Source of the DNA: Chitinophagaceae bacterium
GTDB lineage: Bacteria; Bacteroidota; Bacteroidia; Chitinophagales; Chitinophagaceae
Assembly: GCA_947375185.1 (NCBI GenBank)
Contig: CANCEU010000004.1
Coordinates: 1 to 64,000, forward strand
Direction: 5' to 3'
DNA: 64,000 nt
In this document: positions 20,777 through 32,404 of the stretch, piece by piece
How the letters are laid out: every line of letters begins with the position of its first letter
How positions within the stretch are numbered: position 1 is the first letter of the stretch
Notes under the pieces: model-generated
Database searches by the model: none
Told to the model about the DNA's origin: nothing
What the model saw: the letters and a program-made list of their open reading frames with translations, nothing else
Made by a program: the position numbers and the translations under genes

Positions 20777-20804
20777 TGGTTTAGTGAGTATGGTTTAGTG
20801 AGTA
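20777..20804 (+). repeat. Perfect 14-bp tandem direct repeat upstream of ccoI
   Basis: TGGTTTAGTGAGTA (20777-20790) repeated at 20791-20804. Confidence 0.85.
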
Positions 20805-20832
20805 TTATCAGGGCAAAAACTGATTTAACTCA
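20799..20832 (+). promoter_or_regulatory. Two tandem TGA-N6-TCA (FNR/FixK-type) candidate sites upstream of ccoI
   Basis: TGAGTATTATCA (20799-20810) and TGATTTAACTCA (20821-20832), centres 22 bp apart. Confidence 0.5.
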
Positions 20833-20876
20833 TTCGCTAAATTAATGCCAGGCCTGAATTTCGCAATACTTAAATT

Positions 20877-23273
20877 ATGCAACAACATTGTTACCATTGC
20901 GGAACGGATTGCGATGAAAATATCCAATTAGAAAATAAATTTTTTTGCTGTGATGGCTGTAAAATGGTTTTTCAATTATTGGACGATAATGGCATGTGTC
21001 AATATTATGATTTGTCAGAGATGCCTGGAATGTCTGCAAAAGGGGTTTTTACTTCCGAAAAATACAATTATTTAGATAGTGCTGCGATTCAAGATCAATT
21101 GATACAATTTAAATTGGCCGACCAAGCTCATGTTGTTTTTTACCTGCCTCAAATACATTGTGTGAGTTGTGTTTGGTTATTGGAAAATTTACATAAAATA
21201 AACCCAGGTATTTTACATTCCCAGACTCATTTTGAGAAAAAGGAAATTAAAATTGTATATAATCCTAGTATTATCAGTTTGAAAGAGTTGGTGCAGTTGT
21301 TGGCATTTATAGGGTATGAGCCCATGATACATTTAGGAGGCAACGATTGGTTAAAAAAGAAAAAAGTAAACAAACAGCAATTATATAAAATAGGAGTTGC
21401 TGGTTTTTGTTTTAGTAATATTATGATGTTGAGTTTTCCTGAATACCTTTCTACAAGCGTTGGAGATATTGGAAACCTTCGTCATTTTTTTGTTTATTTA
21501 AATTTGCTTTTATCTTTTCCTGTTTTGTTGTTTAGTGCTAAAGGGTTTTTTATTTCAGCCTACACAGGGCTTAGACAAAAATGGTTGAATATAGATGCGC
21601 CTATTGCATTGGCTATATTGGTGACATTTGGCCGAAGTGTATATGAAATTTTAACGCATTCCGGGGCCGGATATTTAGATAGCATGAGTGGTATTGTATT
21701 TTTCATGTTGATAGGAAGATGGTTTCAGGATAAGTCCTATGATTCATTTTCATTCGAAAGGGATTACACTTCCTTTTTTCCTTTGGGGGTTACGGTTTTA
21801 TTGGATGGAAAGGAAATTAACAAGCCATTGTCTGAAATAGTAAAAGAGGAAATATTATTAGTACGTTTCGATGAAATGATTGCTGCAGATGCTATTTTAT
21901 TAACCGATGGAGCCTTGATTGATTATAGTTTTGTGACAGGTGAAAATGCACCAATTGAAGTCCCAAAAGGGGAAACTGTTTTTGCCGGTGGAATTCAAAA
22001 AGGAAGAGCAATACAAATAAAAGTGGTTAAGCCTGTTGGCCAAAGTTACATTACAGAATTGTGGAACAGTCGATTATTAAGTGCGGATAAAAATGTAGAA
22101 AAATCTTTTGTGCATCCCTGGAGCCAATACTTTACTTATGTATTATTTAGTATTGCTATTATGAGTGGAATTTATTGGTGGTTGAATGATCCACATAATA
22201 TAATGCCAGCTGTGACTTCGATTTTAATTGTTGCTTGTCCTTGCTCCTTATTGCTTACAGTTACATTTACCTATGGCAATATATTAAGGCATTTAGGAAA
22301 GTATAAAATGTATTGCAAGAATAGTTCAGTACTAGAAGCGATCGAAAAAATTGATACGATTGTATTTGATAAAACTGGGACATTGACAAATCATGAAGAT
22401 GCTCATTTGGAATTCATAGGTTTTGAACTAACTAATGAAAATGCTTCTGCTATATATGCAGTTACAAGAGAGTCTTTGCACCCATTGAGTCAACTCATTA
22501 CTAGTTATTTAAGCGCTCAAAATTTACCAGTTATAAAAGTAGATGTGATTGAGCATTTTATTGGAAAGGGAACTCGTGCGATTTGCAATCAAAAAATCAT
22601 CTTAATTGGCTCTTTATCTTTTTTACTTGAAAATGGTATTTCAGTTGCTGGGTCGCCTAATAGTGGCGTTTTCATCGCTATAGATAAGGAATATAAAGGG
22701 GTATTTAAAATTAATCATGTTTACAGAAATGGGATCTCCTCAATGGTAAGGCGATTAAAGTTAAGTGGCTATCAAGTTCATCTTTTAAGCGGTGATCATC
22801 CAACAGAAAAAAAAGCATTACTTGAAATTTTGGGATCGGATACGCCAATGTTATTTGAGCAAAATCCAAATGATAAATTGAATTATATTCAAAGCTTACA
22901 AGCCAAAGGTCTAAAAGTAATGATGGTTGGCGATGGGTTAAATGATGCGGGTGCATTAAAAAAATGTGAAGTCGGAATTGCTGTGACCGATCAAACACAC
23001 CTTTTTACCCCAGCAAGTGATGCAATTTTGGAAGGAGAGATGGTGAATAAATTGGATCTACTTATTGATTTTGCTAAAAAAGGGAAAATGATAATCGTTG
23101 TAATATTCATACTTTCCATTATGTATAATTTGGTGGGAATGTACTTTGCGACCCGTGCGCAATTGTCTCCAATGGTTGCCGCCATTCTGATGCCGATAAG
23201 TTCCATAAGCATTGTTTCATTATCCGCTTTGCTTAGTTATTCCTTTTCTAAGCCTTTATTTAAGAAAAACTGA
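20877..23273 (+). CDS. ccoI: cbb3 oxidase-associated copper-translocating P-type ATPase
   Basis: N-terminal CYHCGTDC/CCDGCK metal-binding region, CPCSLLL translocation motif, DKTGTLT phosphorylation site, MVGDGLNDAGAL; adjacent to ccoS/ccoN. Confidence 0.92.
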   Translation: MQQHCYHCGTDCDENIQLENKFFCCDGCKMVFQLLDDNGMCQYYDLSEMPGMSAKGVFTSEKYNYLDSAAIQDQLIQFKLADQAHVVFYLPQIHCVSCVWLLENLHKINPGILHSQTHFEKKEIKIVYNPSIISLKELVQLLAFIGYEPMIHLGGNDWLKKKKVNKQQLYKIGVAGFCFSNIMMLSFPEYLSTSVGDIGNLRHFFVYLNLLLSFPVLLFSAKGFFISAYTGLRQKWLNIDAPIALAILVTFGRSVYEILTHSGAGYLDSMSGIVFFMLIGRWFQDKSYDSFSFERDYTSFFPLGVTVLLDGKEINKPLSEIVKEEILLVRFDEMIAADAILLTDGALIDYSFVTGENAPIEVPKGETVFAGGIQKGRAIQIKVVKPVGQSYITELWNSRLLSADKNVEKSFVHPWSQYFTYVLFSIAIMSGIYWWLNDPHNIMPAVTSILIVACPCSLLLTVTFTYGNILRHLGKYKMYCKNSSVLEAIEKIDTIVFDKTGTLTNHEDAHLEFIGFELTNENASAIYAVTRESLHPLSQLITSYLSAQNLPVIKVDVIEHFIGKGTRAICNQKIILIGSLSFLLENGISVAGSPNSGVFIAIDKEYKGVFKINHVYRNGISSMVRRLKLSGYQVHLLSGDHPTEKKALLEILGSDTPMLFEQNPNDKLNYIQSLQAKGLKVMMVGDGLNDAGALKKCEVGIAVTDQTHLFTPASDAILEGEMVNKLDLLIDFAKKGKMIIVVIFILSIMYNLVGMYFATRAQLSPMVAAILMPISSISIVSLSALLSYSFSKPLFKKN

Positions 23274-23303
23274 TAAATATCAGCTTTTGCATGACTAAAG
23301 TCA
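23271..23303 (+). promoter_or_regulatory. Two tandem TGA-N6-TCA (FNR/FixK-type) candidate sites upstream of ccoS-ccoNO
   Basis: TGATAAATATCA (23271-23282, overlapping the ccoI stop) and TGACTAAAGTCA (23292-23303), centres 21 bp apart; -7-like TATATTTG at 23327-23334. Confidence 0.55.
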
Positions 23304-23326
23304 CAAACTAGTTTTTGTGCAGCTTT

Positions 23327-23334
23327 TATATTTG
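23327..23334 (+). promoter_or_regulatory. -7 element (TAnnTTTG) of predicted ccoS promoter
   Basis: TATATTTG, 33 bp centre-to-centre downstream of TGACTAAAGTCA. Confidence 0.5.
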
Positions 23335-23350
23335 TTCGAAATATACCACC

Positions 23351-23580: not shown

Positions 23581-25698
23581 ATGCAATTAGAAAGCTTTCA
23601 ATATGATAATAAGACAGTAAGAAATTTTGCCATTGCTACTGTTATTTGGGGTGTAGTGGGCATGCTTGTTGGATTAATTATTGCACTTCAGTTGGTATTT
23701 CCAACTGTACTTAATTTTCAACCTTATTTAAATTTTGGCCGTATTAGACCATTACACACAAATGCTGTAATTTTTGCTTTTGTCGGTAATGGAATCTTTA
23801 TGGGGGTTTATTACTCTTTGCAAAGATTATTAAAGGCAAGAATGTTTAGTGATGTATTAAGTAAAATTCACTTTTGGGGTTGGCAATTAATAATTGTTTC
23901 AGCTGCTATTACCTTACCATTGGGATTTACAAGTGGTAAAGAATATGCCGAATTAGAGTGGCCTATCGATATTGCTATTACTTTAATTTGGGTTGTTTTT
24001 GGATTTAATATGTTTGCGACCATTATTAAAAGAAGAGAACGTCATTTATATGTAGCTGTATGGTTTTACATCGCAACCTTTGTTACTGTAGCGGTATTAC
24101 ATTTGGTAAACTCATTTTCATTACCCATTTCACTTTTCAAAAGTTATAGCTGGTATGCTGGTGTGCAAGATGCCTTGGTACAATGGTGGTATGGTCATAA
24201 CGCAGTTGCATTTTTCCTAACAACACCCTATTTAGGTTTGATGTATTACTTTATGCCTAAGGCGGCTAATCGTCCTGTATTTTCATATAAATTATCGATT
24301 ATTCACTTTTGGGCTTTAATCTTTTTATACATCTGGGCAGGTCCTCACCATTTATTATATACTGCATTGCCTAACTGGGCACAAAGCATAGGTATTGTAT
24401 TTAGTTTTATGCTCATTTTCCCTAGTTGGGGTGGTATGATTAATGGACTGTTGACATTGCGTGGTGCTTGGGATAAAGTAAGAGAAGATGTTATTTTGAA
24501 ATTCATGGTGGTTGCTGTAACAGCATATGGTATGTCCACATTTGAAGGACCTATGTTGTCTTTAAAAAGTATTAACGCTGTCGCACACTTTACCGATTGG
24601 ATTATTGCACACGTGCATATTGGGGGTTTAGGATGGAATGGTATGTTGACTTTTGGTATTTTGTATTGGTTAATCCCAAGAATATATAAGACCGAATTGT
24701 ATTCAAAAAAATTAGCAAATGTCCATTTTTGGTTGGCTACCTTAGGAATTTTATTTTATGCAATTCCAATGTATTGGGCAGGATGGCAACAGGCAAGTAT
24801 GTGGAAACAGTTCACAGAAAGCGGTCAATTGAAATACCAGTTTTTGGAAACGGTTACTTATATGGCGCCATTTTACGCAATGAGGGCTTTAGGCGGTGTA
24901 TTGTATTTGACAGGTGCAATAGTAGCTATGGTTAATTTATTTAAAACAATAGGGAAGGGCACTTTGGTTGCTAACGAAGATGCCGAAGCTCCGGCTTTAG
25001 AAAAAACATATACAAAACATGCTGGGGAACATTGGCATCGTTGGATTGAAAGAAAGCCAACTCCTTTATTAGTAATGTCTTTAGTTGTGATTTTAATTGG
25101 AGGTATGGTGGAAATTATTCCCACATTTTTAGTGAAATCAAATATTCCAACAATTGCAAGTGTTAAGCCTTACACACCACTTGAATTGCAGGGGCGTGAT
25201 ATTTATGTTAGAGAGGGTTGTTATACTTGTCACTCTCAAATGATTCGACCTTTCCGGAGTGAAACAGAGCGTTATGGAGAATATAGTAAGGCTGGTGAAT
25301 TTGTTTATGATCATCCTTTTCAATGGGGAAGTAAAAGAACAGGTCCAGATTTGGCGAGAGAAGGTTCGGGTAATTTGAAAAAATCAAATACATGGCATTT
25401 TAATCATTTGGAAGAACCAAGCGCTATTAGCACCGGTTCAGTAATGCCATCCTATGCGTTCTTAATTGAAAATAATTTAGATACGGCTACCACACCCTTA
25501 AAAATAAATGCAATGCGCACATTAGGTGTTCCTTATGAAGTTGGGTATGCTGTTAAAGCAAATGGAGATTTAATGAATCAAGCTAAGGAAATTGCATCAA
25601 GTCTTAAAAAAGATGGTATTGAAGTTCCAGCAAATAAAGAAGTAATTGCATTGATTGCGTATTTGCAAAGATTGGGGACTGATATTAACAAAAAATAA
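23581..25698 (+). CDS. ccoNO: Fused cbb3 cytochrome c oxidase subunits I and II (CcoN-CcoO)
   Basis: CcoN haem-copper core (RPLHTNAVIFAFVGNG, WWYGHNAVAFFLTTPYLG, HFTDWIIAHVHIGGLGWNGM) continuous with CcoO (GRDIYVREGCYTCHSQMIRPFRSETERYGEYSKAGEFVYDHPFQWGSKRTGPDLAREG). Confidence 0.95.
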   Translation: MQLESFQYDNKTVRNFAIATVIWGVVGMLVGLIIALQLVFPTVLNFQPYLNFGRIRPLHTNAVIFAFVGNGIFMGVYYSLQRLLKARMFSDVLSKIHFWGWQLIIVSAAITLPLGFTSGKEYAELEWPIDIAITLIWVVFGFNMFATIIKRRERHLYVAVWFYIATFVTVAVLHLVNSFSLPISLFKSYSWYAGVQDALVQWWYGHNAVAFFLTTPYLGLMYYFMPKAANRPVFSYKLSIIHFWALIFLYIWAGPHHLLYTALPNWAQSIGIVFSFMLIFPSWGGMINGLLTLRGAWDKVREDVILKFMVVAVTAYGMSTFEGPMLSLKSINAVAHFTDWIIAHVHIGGLGWNGMLTFGILYWLIPRIYKTELYSKKLANVHFWLATLGILFYAIPMYWAGWQQASMWKQFTESGQLKYQFLETVTYMAPFYAMRALGGVLYLTGAIVAMVNLFKTIGKGTLVANEDAEAPALEKTYTKHAGEHWHRWIERKPTPLLVMSLVVILIGGMVEIIPTFLVKSNIPTIASVKPYTPLELQGRDIYVREGCYTCHSQMIRPFRSETERYGEYSKAGEFVYDHPFQWGSKRTGPDLAREGSGNLKKSNTWHFNHLEEPSAISTGSVMPSYAFLIENNLDTATTPLKINAMRTLGVPYEVGYAVKANGDLMNQAKEIASSLKKDGIEVPANKEVIALIAYLQRLGTDINKK

Positions 25699-25730: not shown

Positions 25731-25898
25731 ATGTTCAGTTTTATAAAAAAATATACAGAGACCATGCAGGATATACAATTTTATCCCATTTTCTCTTTAT
25801 TGGTATTTGTTGCATTTTTTGTTGGGGTATTATGGTATGTAAAAGTGATGGATAAAAAGGAAGTGGATGCAATTAAGAATCTACCACTTGAACAATAA
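25731..25898 (+). CDS. ccoQ: Small CcoQ-like cbb3 oxidase subunit (55 aa, not in supplied ORF track)
   Basis: Read directly: MFSFIKKYTETMQDIQFYPIFSLLVFVAFFVGVLWYVKVMDKKEVDAIKNLPLEQ; single TM segment, between ccoNO and ccoP. Confidence 0.85.
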   Translation: MFSFIKKYTETMQDIQFYPIFSLLVFVAFFVGVLWYVKVMDKKEVDAIKNLPLEQ

Positions 25899-25921: not shown

Positions 25922-27097
25922 ATGTTTAAATATAAAAATATTTCGTTAGTTGTTATGGCACTCTTTACTGCTATTGTAAGTGTAGCACAAACAACAGCAT
26001 CTTCATCAGCATCTGAAGCACCAACCAATTATTTAGAATTTTTAATGGTTACGATAGCAGGCTTATTGGTAATTGTAATATGGGTATTGGCAAATGTGCT
26101 TGGAATGATTTCAAAAAAAGCTGTCGAAGTTGCAAAGTCAAGCAAAAAAATATTGTTTATTGCCTTTGTTGTAATGGGATCAATGTTTACAAATGGTGCA
26201 AAGGCGCAAGCTGCTATTGCAGATACAACAGCTAAAGCGTCTTCGGTTGACTACTATGGGGGATTATCTTCCACTACTTTTTGGACATTATCTAGTGTGC
26301 TTGGGTTGGAACTGTTGGTTGTTATCTTGTTAGTTTTATTTATTAGAGGACTTTGGAAAGTCATATATCCAGTTCCGGTTATGATTCATACTGACCAATC
26401 AATAGCTGATTCTTGGTTGATTCGTACTTGGAAAAATTTAGATAAGAAGTTTTTAACTAAAGCAATTCCATTGGATCAAGAGGCGGATAGATTATTGGAT
26501 CATGATTACGATGGCATTAAAGAATTAGACAATGCCTTGCCACCATGGTGGAAATATGGATTTATCATTACGATTTTTATTGCTGTTTTGTATTTGTTTA
26601 AATATGAGATTTTTCATAATGGGCCAAACCCTACCGAAGAGTATAATACAGAGATGACCACTGCTAAGGATCAAGTTGATGCATATTTAGCATCTATGAA
26701 AAATAATGTCGACGAAAAGTCAGTTACGATGGCCGATGCAGCTGGAATTGCAGCTGGCCAAGCAACATTTGCAAAAACATGTGTCCCTTGTCATGGAGCG
26801 AAAGGGGAAGGTGGTGTGGGCCCGAACTTAACAGACGATTATTGGTTGCATGGAGGTAAAATTTCAGATTTATTTAAGACTATTAAATATGGTTATCCTG
26901 ATAAAGGAATGCAGTCATGGCAAGCTACTTATTCCCCAATACAAATTCAACAGTTGGCAAGTTATGTAAAGTCATTAAAAGGAACCAATCCTCCAAATCC
27001 AAAGGCGCCTCAAGGTGATTTATTTAAAGAAGATGTTATGGTGAAAGATAGTGCTAGTGCGGCTCCTAAAAAAGACAGCCTAATTTCAGTAAAATAA
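25922..27097 (+). CDS. ccoP: cbb3 oxidase cytochrome c subunit CcoP (single CXXCH, extended N-terminus)
   Basis: HDYDGIKELDNALPPWWKYGFIITI CcoP N-domain signature; one haem motif CVPCH; extra N-terminal TM segments. Confidence 0.92.
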   Translation: MFKYKNISLVVMALFTAIVSVAQTTASSSASEAPTNYLEFLMVTIAGLLVIVIWVLANVLGMISKKAVEVAKSSKKILFIAFVVMGSMFTNGAKAQAAIADTTAKASSVDYYGGLSSTTFWTLSSVLGLELLVVILLVLFIRGLWKVIYPVPVMIHTDQSIADSWLIRTWKNLDKKFLTKAIPLDQEADRLLDHDYDGIKELDNALPPWWKYGFIITIFIAVLYLFKYEIFHNGPNPTEEYNTEMTTAKDQVDAYLASMKNNVDEKSVTMADAAGIAAGQATFAKTCVPCHGAKGEGGVGPNLTDDYWLHGGKISDLFKTIKYGYPDKGMQSWQATYSPIQIQQLASYVKSLKGTNPPNPKAPQGDLFKEDVMVKDSASAAPKKDSLISVK

Positions 27098-27106
27098 TCA
27101 TTTAAA

Positions 27107-28522
27107 ATGAGCGCATCAGATTCAGAGACTTTGGCTAATTACAAAAAGGAGATGATTGATCAGTCCTTTAGAGATTCTGTTGCTACAATTAGCAAAGAGG
27201 GTAATCGTAATTATATTCATCCTCAAAAACCAAAAGGTAAACTATATAATTTAAGATCTTACTTTAGTTATTTTTATTTAATATTATTTTTCACTTTGCC
27301 ATTTATTAAAATTGGAGGAGAACCTGTTTTTTTAATAAATGTATTAGAGCGAAAGTTTATTTTATTCGGAAAAATATTTTGGCCACAAGATTTTTTCATT
27401 TTTGCTATAGGATTATTAACGTTCTTGGTGTTTATAATTTTATTTACAGTTGCGTTTGGCAGAATATGGTGTGGATGGGCTTGTCCCCAAACTATATTTA
27501 TGGAGATGGTTTTCAGAAAAATTGAATTTTTCATAGAAGGGGATGTTGCTCAACAAAAAAGATTGAATGCTCGGCCTTGGGATGGCGAAAAGATTTTGAA
27601 AAAAGGGGCAAAGACGATTGTCTTTTTTATGCTCTCTTTTTTAATTGCCAATTTCTTTTTAGGTTATATCATAGGAATTGATGAAGTGGGTAAGTTGGTG
27701 CAGGAAGGTATTTTTGTACATATTGGAACATTTAGTGCATTGGTCTTGTTTACGCTTGTGTTCTTTTTTGTTTATTTATGGTTTAGAGAGCAAGCTTGTA
27801 TTATAGTTTGTCCTTATGGTCGTTTGCAAGGGGTTTTATTGGACAAAAATTCAATTTTAGTTGCTTACGATTATGTTCGAGGTGAGCCTAGAGGAAAGGC
27901 AACTGAACAGGGTCATGGTGATTGTGTTAATTGTCATGCCTGTGTTCGTGTTTGCCCAACCGGTATTGATATTCGCAATGGAACTCAATTAGAATGTGTT
28001 AATTGCACTGCTTGCATTGATGCATGTGATGAAATTATGGATCATGTGGGTAAGCCAAAAGGCTTAATAAGATATGCTTCTGAAAATAATATTGCACTTA
28101 AAGAAAAGACAACTTATACGTGGCGATTGAAATTGTATACGATAGTGTTAACAGCGTTGATCTGTTTTTTGGCGATTTTATTAATAACAAGAGCAGATGT
28201 GTCTGCACGTATCATTAAAACGCCAGGACAGACTTATCAGCAATTAGACAACAATAAGATCAGTAATTTGTATAATATTAAATTGGCTAATAAGACGAGG
28301 AGGATAATTCATTTGGATTTAAAATTGGAAGATGCAATTGGTGAAATAAAGCTTATTAATAAAATAGATGTTCCAAAAGAATCTTACTTTCAAACTAGCT
28401 TTTTTATAATATTTACAAAAGATCAAATTCACAATAGGAAAACAAAAGTTAATGTTGGTATATATGAGAATGGTAAAAGAATTCAAAATACAACAGCAAC
28501 ATTTTTAGGTCCAACTATTTAA
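27107..28522 (+). CDS. ccoG: cbb3 oxidase accessory polyferredoxin CcoG
   Basis: FGRIWCGWACPQTIFMEMVFRKIE; CVNCHACVRVCPTGIDIRNGTQLECVNCTACIDACD. Confidence 0.93.
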   Translation: MSASDSETLANYKKEMIDQSFRDSVATISKEGNRNYIHPQKPKGKLYNLRSYFSYFYLILFFTLPFIKIGGEPVFLINVLERKFILFGKIFWPQDFFIFAIGLLTFLVFIILFTVAFGRIWCGWACPQTIFMEMVFRKIEFFIEGDVAQQKRLNARPWDGEKILKKGAKTIVFFMLSFLIANFFLGYIIGIDEVGKLVQEGIFVHIGTFSALVLFTLVFFFVYLWFREQACIIVCPYGRLQGVLLDKNSILVAYDYVRGEPRGKATEQGHGDCVNCHACVRVCPTGIDIRNGTQLECVNCTACIDACDEIMDHVGKPKGLIRYASENNIALKEKTTYTWRLKLYTIVLTALICFLAILLITRADVSARIIKTPGQTYQQLDNNKISNLYNIKLANKTRRIIHLDLKLEDAIGEIKLINKIDVPKESYFQTSFFIIFTKDQIHNRKTKVNVGIYENGKRIQNTTATFLGPTI

Positions 28523-28532
28523 TAAATGTAAT

Positions 28533-28970
28533 ATGAAATTTAATTGGGGTTATAAAATAATAGTTATCTATGGCATTTTTGTAATAGGCATTTTGTTTCT
28601 AGTATATAAGTCAAGTCAGCAAAAAATGGACTTAGTTCAAAAGGACTACTATGCTGATGAATTAAAGTATCAAAATGTAATCAATGCATCACAAAATGCT
28701 AAGGACATTGGAGGAACTTTAACAACCATCAGAAAAGGCGGACATTTATTGGTAGGGTTACCTGCTAGTTTTCATAATGAGAAAGTAAAAGGGGTAGCAC
28801 ATTTATATTATGCTGCTGATGAAACTAGAGATATTTCAAAATCATTTATCACTAGTACAGGTGAATTTGAAATGGAATTATTGACAATGATGAGTGGATA
28901 TTATACACTTAAACTTGACTTGGATTTAAATGGCAAACAATATTATTACGAACAAAAACTAACTTTTTAA
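28533..28970 (+). CDS. ccoH: FixH/CcoH family protein
   Basis: N-terminal TM then KDYYADELKYQ typical of FixH; position directly after ccoG. Confidence 0.85.
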   Translation: MKFNWGYKIIVIYGIFVIGILFLVYKSSQQKMDLVQKDYYADELKYQNVINASQNAKDIGGTLTTIRKGGHLLVGLPASFHNEKVKGVAHLYYAADETRDISKSFITSTGEFEMELLTMMSGYYTLKLDLDLNGKQYYYEQKLTF

Positions 28971-28972
28971 TC

Positions 28973-29686
28973 ATGTTTTTGAGTAGTGTTTTTGAGATTG
29001 GGTTTTTGATGGGTCTACTAGGGAGCGTCCATTGCATTGGTATGTGTGGGCCATTAGTGATGGCACTCCCTATTTCTCAAAAAAACAATTTCCAAAAAAT
29101 AACTGCCTTGTTTTTATATCATTCTGGTAAAATTGCTAGTTATTCAATACTGGGTGTGCTTTTTGGTTTATTTGGTAGTCAATTACCTGTTTTTGCATTA
29201 CAAAGAAATATTTCAATAGTAATAGGAGTTACAATGTTATTATATGTGCTTTATGTTTTTGTTTTAAAGCCAAAACATATACAATTAGGCATATTTGCTT
29301 CTTATTATAATCAAATAGTAAAGTTGTTGAGTCAATTATTTAAAAGCAAATCCGCAATTTCATTTTTATTCATTGGGTTACTTAATGGATTATTGCCTTG
29401 TGGGATGATCTATTTGGCATTAAGTTCTGCGATGGCTACACAGCATGTTTTATATGGGGGATTATTGATGACTTTCTTTGGATTGGGTACAGTGCCAGCT
29501 TTATTATTGGTGGCATTAGGAGGGCAGTATATGGGATTTGCGTTTAGGAAAAAGTTACAAAATTTATTGCCTGTTTTCATTTTTGGCATGGGCGTGTTGC
29601 TGATATTAAGAGGGCTTAATTTAGGAATACCCTATTTAAGCCCAATGGCTGGAATTGGAACTCAGGTAATTTCATGTCATAATTAA
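28973..29686 (+). CDS. SafE/TauE-like (DsbD-TM) membrane protein, cbb3 maturation-associated
   Basis: MGLLGSVHCIGMCGPLVMALP ... GLLNGLLPCGMIYLALSSAMAT; last gene of cco cluster. Confidence 0.85.
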   Translation: MFLSSVFEIGFLMGLLGSVHCIGMCGPLVMALPISQKNNFQKITALFLYHSGKIASYSILGVLFGLFGSQLPVFALQRNISIVIGVTMLLYVLYVFVLKPKHIQLGIFASYYNQIVKLLSQLFKSKSAISFLFIGLLNGLLPCGMIYLALSSAMATQHVLYGGLLMTFFGLGTVPALLLVALGGQYMGFAFRKKLQNLLPVFIFGMGVLLILRGLNLGIPYLSPMAGIGTQVISCHN

Positions 29687-30068: not shown

Positions 30069-31127
30069 TTAATTAAATAAGTTTAGTAATTTCTTTTCCT
30101 CCAAAATGGTAATTTTGCCATCTCTGATTTCTATTAATTTTTCATTTTTGAAATCACTGAGGGTTCTTATTAAACTTTCAGTGGCAGTACCTGCAATATT
30201 CGCTAGATCTTCTCTTGATATAGACATTGAGAAGTGCTCATCTGCGCTAGTTGCATATTTTCTTTTCAAAGTCAACAAAGCATCTGCCACACGTTTTCTT
30301 AAACTATGGTAGGCAAGTGCAACGAGCTGCTGTTCCTTTTCTGTAATATTATTAGCAAGTAGCTTTATTACCTTCAATGCGATTTCTTGATTGGTGGTAA
30401 TTAAATGTTCAAACTCTTTTTTTGGTATAACTCTTATTGATGATTCTTCTAATGTTTCAGCAAACTCTTCATATACTGTATTTTCAATAAGTGGGATATG
30501 CCCAAAAAAATCTCCTGAAGAAAGTAATCCTATGATTAATTCTTTTCCGCCATCACTCGTTTTAAATACTTTTACTTTACCTGATTCAATATAGTATAGT
30601 TTATTTGGATGTTGTCCTTCGGCGTAAATTGTTTGTTTTTTCTTATAATCGATGATGTCATGATTTTCTAGCGTTTCATGCATCTCGTCTTTTTGCCCAA
30701 GGTCTGCAATAATTTGATGCCAGGTTTCAATTGCTTTACTTCCATGGTTTTGTTGAATTTTTACTTTTTCTAATCTTGTTCTGATTGCATTAATTAATTC
30801 AACATCTGAAAATGGTTTTGTAATATAATCATCTGCTCCCATTTCCATTCCTTTACGTAGATCAGTTCTTTCGCTTTTTGCACTTAAAAAGATAAATGGG
30901 ATATGTTTTAAGGCTGGATTTTTGCTAATAATTTGATAAACTCCATAGCCATCTAAAATGGGCATCATAATATCGCAAACTATTAAGTCTGGAGGGTTAG
31001 ACATTGCTTTTTCAACTCCAATTTTGCCGTTTTCTGCAGTTATAATTTCATAATTCGCTAAAGCAAGAATTTCAGCTGTATTTTCTCTTAATGCTTCATT
31101 GTCTTCAATTAGTAATATTTTCTCCAT
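30069..31127 (-). CDS. Response regulator receiver fused to cNMP-binding-like and CRP/FNR-type HTH domains
   Basis: Receiver LLIEDNEALREN...DLIVCDIMMPILDGYG...LSAKSERTDLRKGMEMGADDYITKPF; cupin-like IYAEGQHPNKLYYIESGKVKVFK; HTH SREDLANIAGTATESLIRTLSDFKNEKLIEIRDGKITIL. Confidence 0.92.
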   Translation of the reverse strand: MEKILLIEDNEALRENTAEILALANYEIITAENGKIGVEKAMSNPPDLIVCDIMMPILDGYGVYQIISKNPALKHIPFIFLSAKSERTDLRKGMEMGADDYITKPFSDVELINAIRTRLEKVKIQQNHGSKAIETWHQIIADLGQKDEMHETLENHDIIDYKKKQTIYAEGQHPNKLYYIESGKVKVFKTSDGGKELIIGLLSSGDFFGHIPLIENTVYEEFAETLEESSIRVIPKKEFEHLITTNQEIALKVIKLLANNITEKEQQLVALAYHSLRKRVADALLTLKRKYATSADEHFSMSISREDLANIAGTATESLIRTLSDFKNEKLIEIRDGKITILEEKKLLNLFN

Positions 31128-31138
31128 ACTTTAAAAAT

Positions 31139-32404
31139 TTATTCGAAGTCATTTATAATTTTGCTTGGAAGTGATATTGTAAATTTACTTCCTTTTTCCA
31201 ATTCACTATTATATTGTATGTTACCATTCAATAATTCTACATAACGACCAACTATATGAAGGCCGAGTCCAGTACCTTGTATGTTTGTTACGTTCGAAGC
31301 CCTGAAAAATCTTTCAAACAAATGAACCTGGTCACTCTTTGGGATACCAATACCTTGGTCGATTATTTCAATAAGTGTAACTGAATCATCAATTTTCGTT
31401 TCTATGTTAATAATAGCATTTTCAGGTGAAAATTTGATGGCATTTGACATGAGGTTTACCAATACATGTTTTAACAAATTACTGTCTAAATAAGTATTCG
31501 GAGCTCCAATATGAGTGTATTGAATATTTTGATTTGGTTTAAGTAATACATTCATTTCATTAATGATATTACTTATAAATTCGGTCAAGTCAAATTCTTC
31601 GGGCTTAACTTCAACCTTGCCTTCTTCAATTTTTCCTAAGGATAAAAATTCGTTTAAAATATCTGTTAGCGATTTGACAGATGATTTAATTCGATCTATA
31701 TGTCTATCTCTTTTAGGTTGATCTTCGGTGGTATTGTATTTTGCCAATAAGGAAATAGAAGATAGGATAGTACTAAGCGGGGTTCTAAATTCATGAGATG
31801 CCATTGAAACAAATCTTGATTTTAGGTCATTTACTTCTTTCTCTTTTTCTAATGACAAAGTAAGTTCTTCTTTTGAGGCCTCAAGTTCATTGAGTGTGCT
31901 TTGTAACTGAATAGTTCTTGAATTTACTGTTGCTTCAAGGTTAGCGTTCAATTTTTTGATTTCTTCATTAATTAATTCAAGATCTGCTTTTTGTTTAATA
32001 ATTTGTTCCTCGTTCTCTTTTCTTTTAGTAATGTCTGCAATATAAGCAAGTACAAATTTTTCATCATTGGTGGTAAAGTGTCCTAGGCTTACTTCAACAG
32101 GAAATTCAGTACCATCTTTTCTTATTGCGGATAGTGTCATGCCAATACCCATACCTCTTGCAACTGGTTCATGTGTATAATTTTCTCTGTAGCCAACATG
32201 TTTATGATGGTAGCGAGTAGGGATTAATTGCTCAAGTACTTCTCCCGCCATGGATTGGTCTTTGTATCCAAATAAGTTATCTGCAAAGTGATTTGCTAAG
32301 ACAATAACCCCTTTGTCATTGACTACAATGATTCCGAGTGAGGCAGAGTTGAATAAAGCTTCAAATCGTATGTCCTTGTTTAATGAATTATTCAAAACGT
32401 TCAT
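31139..32404 (-). CDS. Soluble PAS-domain sensor histidine kinase
   Basis: PAS with FixL-like region (LIPTRYHHKHVGYRENY...MGIGMTLSAIRKDGTEFPVEVSLG), H-box SMASHEFRTPLSTILSSI, N-box VLVNLMSNAIKFSP, G-boxes; no TM segment. Confidence 0.93.
   Translation of the reverse strand: MNVLNNSLNKDIRFEALFNSASLGIIVVNDKGVIVLANHFADNLFGYKDQSMAGEVLEQLIPTRYHHKHVGYRENYTHEPVARGMGIGMTLSAIRKDGTEFPVEVSLGHFTTNDEKFVLAYIADITKRKENEEQIIKQKADLELINEEIKKLNANLEATVNSRTIQLQSTLNELEASKEELTLSLEKEKEVNDLKSRFVSMASHEFRTPLSTILSSISLLAKYNTTEDQPKRDRHIDRIKSSVKSLTDILNEFLSLGKIEEGKVEVKPEEFDLTEFISNIINEMNVLLKPNQNIQYTHIGAPNTYLDSNLLKHVLVNLMSNAIKFSPENAIINIETKIDDSVTLIEIIDQGIGIPKSDQVHLFERFFRASNVTNIQGTGLGLHIVGRYVELLNGNIQYNSELEKGSKFTISLPSKIINDFE

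Follow-up and report, generated by a model that had tools for sequence, protein, structure and literature searches.

Among the described systems with which the present locus can be compared, the FixL-FixJ-FixK cascade of Alphaproteobacteria (fixNOQP/ccoNOQP) shares with it a FixL-like PAS kinase, a receiver and a CRP/FNR-type DNA-binding domain, as well as the targets cco, ccoI/ccoS and hemN. In that cascade FixJ activates fixK, whereas here the receiver and the CRP domain reside in one protein (REC-CRP); compared with FixK promoters, the motif is devoid of the outer T, the promoter is of the Bacteroidota sigmaA type and tandem sites are the rule. Regulons of FNR/FnrN (Fe-S oxygen sensors) have in common the protein superfamily, the TGAN6TCA core and the class II position of -41.5, and relatives of the source organism harbour an FNR-like protein that bears an N-terminal cysteine motif and shares the recognition helix. 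In contrast, the candidate regulator in the window (the whole 64,000-nucleotide stretch of Chitinophagaceae DNA analysed here) has a receiver and no N-terminal cysteine motif, and the consensus reads MTGAYN4RTCAK instead of TTGATN4ATCAA. Class II and class III (tandem) promoters of Escherichia coli CRP likewise place dimers at -41.5 and around -62 on one face of the DNA, with the -35/-33 element being dispensable; the present case differs in its Bacteroidota sigma factor and -7 box, and in control that is predicted to occur by phosphorylation, not cAMP. The hFixL-FxkR-FixKf system of Rhizobium provides an alternative two-component front end to cco genes, but FxkR, with its GTTACA-repeat motif, is a stand-alone response regulator, and no receiver-fused CRP is described there (PMC4999443).

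Low-oxygen sensing and induction of the high-affinity cbb3 oxidase in Bacteroidota appear to be little described in the searchable literature, and no account of cbb3 being controlled by REC-CRP or by FixL/FNR in this phylum was found in its open-licence part. In the locus reported here, the region 23271-23334 is quite probably an activator-dependent sigmaA promoter with tandem CRP/FNR-superfamily dimers, at which REC-CRP would be the most likely activator, acting via a FixL-like kinase at low oxygen.

The cco cluster and its tandem promoters

The cluster and its promoter elements are arranged in the window as follows.

20799-20810, forward strand: candidate distal activator site of the ccoI promoter, TGAGTATTATCA
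20821-20832, forward strand: candidate proximal activator site of the ccoI promoter, TGATTTAACTCA, 22 bp from the distal site
20856-20863, forward strand: weak -7 box of the ccoI promoter, GAATTTCG, matching the consensus at 4/6 bases and lying 33 bp from the proximal site, as expected
20877-23273, forward strand: ccoI-like copper P-type ATPase of cbb3 maturation (Pfam ATPase-cat_bd, E1-E2_ATPase, Hydrolase)
23271-23282, forward strand: candidate distal activator site of the ccoS promoter, TGATAAATATCA, centre 23276.5 (-62.5)
23292-23303, forward strand: candidate proximal activator site of the ccoS promoter, TGACTAAAGTCA, centre 23297.5 (-41.5)
23327-23334, forward strand: Bacteroidota sigmaA -7 box of the ccoS promoter, TATATTTG (TAnnTTTG; consensus and position from PMC9723704)
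23339, forward strand: predicted transcription start, based on a sigmaA box at -12 to -5 (PMC9723704)
23351-23551, forward strand: ccoS (FixS; Pfam FixS 4e-19)
23581-25698, forward strand: ccoNO fusion, catalytic cbb3 subunits (Pfam COX1 and FixO)
25731-25898, forward strand: small ORF of 55 aa at the ccoQ position, assigned by position alone, with no family match
25922-27097, forward strand: ccoP (Pfam FixP_N, Cytochrome_CBB3)
27107-28522, forward strand: ccoG (FixG; Pfam Fer4_18, FixG_C)
28533-28970, forward strand: ccoH (FixH; Pfam FixH)
28973-29686, forward strand: cco-associated DsbD-like membrane protein (Pfam DsbD_2 1e-47)

The ccoNO fusion lies above the cut-off for the NCBIfam bifunctional cbb3 subunit I/II. 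An earlier note on this DNA had placed two palindromes and a -7 element at 23271-23334, upstream of ccoS-ccoNO; all three were found there, ahead of ccoS-ccoNOP, with the site centres 21 bp apart and the centre of the -7 box 33 bp past the proximal site. The TGA of the distal site doubles as the stop codon of ccoI. Since mapping of transcription starts in a flavobacterium sets the TAnnTTTG box of sigmaA at positions -12 to -5 (PMC9723704), +1 would fall at 23339, leaving 12 nt of leader ahead of the ccoS start codon (ATG, 23351) and the site centres at -41.5 and -62.5. The class II geometry proposed earlier (sites near -41 and -62) could be refined in this manner, the proximal site being predicted at exactly -41.5 from the position of the box. 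The reported lack of a -33 box was also borne out, as TTTG is absent 19 bp upstream of the ccoS -7 box and none is conserved there in 48 aligned relatives. The ccoS promoter would accordingly be assigned to CRP/FNR class II by a putative site near -41.5 that overlaps the -35/-33 region in place of a -33 box, while its TAnnTTTG -7 box is that of a Bacteroidota sigmaA promoter. The second tandem pair, upstream of ccoI (20799-20832), had been overlooked in the earlier note.

The designation of the sites as FNR/FixK-type holds in part: they belong to the CRP/FNR superfamily by their TGA...TCA core, but the FNR/FixK box TTGAT-N4-ATCAA is not what they carry. In the aligned promoters of relatives the consensus at both sites is MTGAY-N4-RTCAK, with A or C favoured at the outer base and T present at only ~12% of 192 flank positions. 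The pattern TTGAN6TCAA with one mismatch allowed gave many scattered matches in the window and was rejected as a description of the motif.

Tandem pairs in the source genome and across Bacteroidota

A single TGAN6TCA site is uninformative, since the window holds 23 of them against 21.5 expected from shuffles. Pairs spaced 19-24 bp apart are rare, the 2.28 Mb genome having five in total as against one match to the reversed control, and four of the five precede respiratory genes, namely ccoI, ccoS and, on contig C20, two divergent cytochrome c operons; the fifth (contig C2) lies inside a coding sequence without a -7 box and was taken as chance. On C20, the tandem promoters stand back-to-back between the divergent operons (L128 8820-9140), one of which encodes NrfD and Fe-S subunits together with a c-type cytochrome and the other a PSCyt1-type protein with a DUF5777 barrel; a perfect TACTTTTG is present in the rightward promoter, at a distance of exactly 33 bp from the proximal site. 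When the full architecture was defined as 18 bases (two sites and the -7 box at fixed spacing), only the ccoI and the two C20 promoters came within two mismatches in this genome; the ccoS promoter is perfect but spaced at 21 bp. Candidates with three mismatches (C11, C60 and others) were at the control level and were excluded from the counts.

Phylogenetic footprinting, proposed in the earlier note, recovered the predicted architecture over an almost nil background and lends strong support to the earlier reading. It covered 80 ccoNO loci (1.54 Mb) picked by ccoNO similarity, a sample that is not unbiased and in which related species are non-independent. TGAN6TCA pairs in these loci numbered 57 at 22 bp, 5 at 23 bp, 1 at 21 bp and no more than 2 at each remaining spacing, while nine control patterns yielded 0-1 pairs at 22 bp; the 22-bp spacing is the rule among relatives and the 21 bp of the ccoS pair an exception. 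An exact TAnnTTTG occurred 22 times at 33 bp from the proximal site, as against 7 times summed over all other distances, and with up to one mismatch tolerated, 50 of the 62 pairs had it at precisely 33 bp. Apart from both sites and the -7 box, nothing else is strongly conserved in the aligned promoters, and no -33 element is present. An architecture score of at least 15/18 was reached by 33/69 ccoS and 23/58 ccoI upstream regions, for which the simulated background was 0 and 0.0009, respectively. Across the phylum, the perfect full pattern was detected in 30/297 genomes (reversed control, 0/297), concentrated in the window's own family (9/11), order and class.

Relatives also have this architecture upstream of hemN, hemA, UspA, hemerythrin-like, CBS-domain and kinase/REC-CRP genes, and the genes behind it are predicted to constitute a low-oxygen respiratory regulon. 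Tandem pairs precede the REC-CRP or kinase genes themselves at loci L016, L018, L029 and L079; no tandem pair was found upstream of the window's own REC-CRP or kinase genes. A generalised palindrome search of Pedobacter loci without perfect tandems gave nothing convincing. At the Pedobacter-type loci L011, L020, L024 and L025, three of the four REC-CRP-proximal intergenic regions have a strong distal and a degraded proximal site, and the recognition helix of REC-CRP is divergent (ETVSR), making co-evolution of site and regulator possible. As a separate observation, the cco cluster of Pontibacter harbours near-identical tandem promoters before ccoNO and ccoG (L048 9802-9835 and 13668-13701), as if a promoter had been duplicated within the cluster.

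The proposed regulator REC-CRP and the FixL-like kinase

Two regulatory genes are located just downstream of the cco cluster.

30069-31127, reverse strand: REC-CRP, a fusion of receiver, cNMP-type domain and Crp HTH (Pfam Response_reg, cNMP_binding, HTH_Crp_2)
31139-32404, reverse strand: FixL-like PAS sensor histidine kinase (Pfam PAS, HisKA, HATPase_c)

REC-CRP has the features of a response regulator (Response_reg 3e-26), with the phospho-acceptor Asp (CDIMMP) and the Lys (KPF) conserved. It is unlike FixK in its fused receiver (72 bits for NF050806 against a cut-off of 300) and unlike FixJ in its output, which is composed of cNMP and HTH_Crp_2 domains and not of a LuxR/NarL-type HTH. The N-terminal cysteine cluster of FNR is absent from it and is found in the short CRPs of relatives. 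The earlier note spoke of FNR/FixK-type sites; the likely regulator is this receiver-CRP fusion adjoining the operon, and not a plain FNR or FixK.

For the kinase PAS domain (residues 11-126), the haem domain of FixL (1d06, E=3.4e-15) is the closest among solved structures. The residue aligned to the haem His of FixL is kept in the window kinase and in every relative kinase with the PAS domain covered; a non-FixL PAS domain (10jx) likewise has His at the haem-ligand position. The ligand-sensing Arg is kept by roughly half of the relatives, among them every Sphingobacteriaceae partner covered. Haem binding and oxygen sensing by the window kinase are uncertain because it has Met at this position.

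In the proposed mechanism, 23271-23334 would serve as an activator-dependent sigmaA promoter driving ccoS-ccoNOP(GH), to which two CRP/FNR-superfamily dimers bind in tandem at a distance of two helical turns. At -41.5, the proximal dimer would make the class II contact that stands in for the one absent at -33, and a further contact, of class I, may come from the distal dimer near -62. At low oxygen, the FixL-like kinase (31139-32404) would phosphorylate and thereby activate REC-CRP; the FixL-FixJ-FixK cascade would in this manner be condensed into a kinase and a single fused regulator. Points that weigh against this scheme are the absence of a tandem pair upstream of the window's own two regulatory genes, the Met of the kinase, the four REC-CRP genomes devoid of perfect 22-bp tandems, the weak ccoI -7 box and an assembly of 93% completeness, from which an FNR-like gene may be missing.

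Apparent exchange of regulators and alternative readers of the promoter

The distribution of regulators was surveyed in 54 genomes hand-picked from search results, so the counts are descriptive and do not constitute a test: full-length REC-CRP is encoded in 33/54, of which 29 have 22-bp tandems and 4 are without perfect ones. Several genomes without REC-CRP combine the tandems with a short CRP that bears cysteines in its N-terminal region and nearly the same helix (..TATES.IR.L). One such genome (G150) belongs to the same genus as the source organism and has an FNR-like N-terminal-cysteine gene immediately ahead of ccoI and of a hemerythrin-like gene, with the layout kept. Some genomes (G126, G146) carry both types of regulator together. 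The REC-CRP proteins cluster as a single group in the tree (100/100), adjoining the short forms. From these sequences it appears that the DNA-binding domain and the promoter geometry persisted through an exchange of the sensing part. We are inclined to see here one low-oxygen promoter code of Bacteroidota (two MTGAYN4RTCAK sites 22 bp apart, with TAnnTTTG 33 bp further on) with interchangeable readers, either a cysteine-bearing protein of the FNR kind or a FixL-type kinase with a receiver-CRP fusion of single origin; at unchanged promoters, these would have been swapped even between members of one genus.

The same distribution bears on the strongest alternative, in which a genuine promoter responds to an FNR-type Fe-S protein missing from the assembly, or to several CRP-family proteins with REC-CRP as just one input. 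The short cysteine-bearing CRPs beside the same promoters in many relatives (G150 included), the genomes with both types and an assembly that is 93% complete, which makes a missing FNR-like gene conceivable, are all in its favour. Nevertheless, the source genome encodes only two cNMP-domain (CRP-type) proteins, neither of which is FNR-like, and the place taken by the FNR-like gene in G150 is not so occupied in the window; we regard this alternative as unlikely, though deserving of attention.

It is far less probable that the tandem sites are bound by the other cNMP-domain protein, a second CRP on contig C36. It is the sole further candidate found and CRP sites have the same TGAN6TCA core, but the protein is a very distant homologue (branch 7.6) with a CRP-type SRE..SR helix. 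Its gene lies near sulfide:quinone-type oxidoreductase and cytochrome bd-like genes (both named from sequence and not by family search), and this neighbourhood harbours single GTGAN6TCAC palindromes with a -7 box at class II distance, whereas the tandem sites are without that outer base pair. The recognition helices also differ (TATESLIRTL in REC-CRP, TSREVVSRLL in the second CRP), and because of these differences in outer base and helix the tandem sites were assigned to REC-CRP, which is most likely the activator of the ccoS promoter in this species. Near the gene of the second CRP, a divergent efflux/SQR-like promoter region (L129 5040-5260, corresponding to about 10040-10260 of C36) contains two GTGAN6TCAC palindromes with -7-like boxes 32-33 bp away, and is a candidate for a separate regulon.

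Finally, the reading of the ccoS pair as chance, or as a by-product of the ccoI stop TGA and AT-rich DNA, draws on the chance frequency of single sites and on the TGA shared with the stop codon, but has practically nothing left to recommend it, being refuted by the footprint, in which the fixed 22/33 geometry repeats across families with zero control matches, and by its recurrence before unlinked respiratory operons of the same genome.

Implications for low-oxygen regulation in Bacteroidota

With so rigid and searchable a promoter code, the regulon can be deduced straight from genome sequences, and the activator becomes amenable to testing. The seeming exchange of the sensory front end (Fe-S or phosphorelay) may represent an independent parallel to the replacement between FnrN and FixLJ-FixK in Alphaproteobacteria (PMC4999443). 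Furthermore, a metatranscriptomic study of 2021 assigned CRP/FNR homologues of Flavobacteriales, Saprospiraceae and Ignavibacteria to the carbon regulator MalR (PMC8510549); the present regulon suggests that some of these homologues may be low-oxygen regulators.
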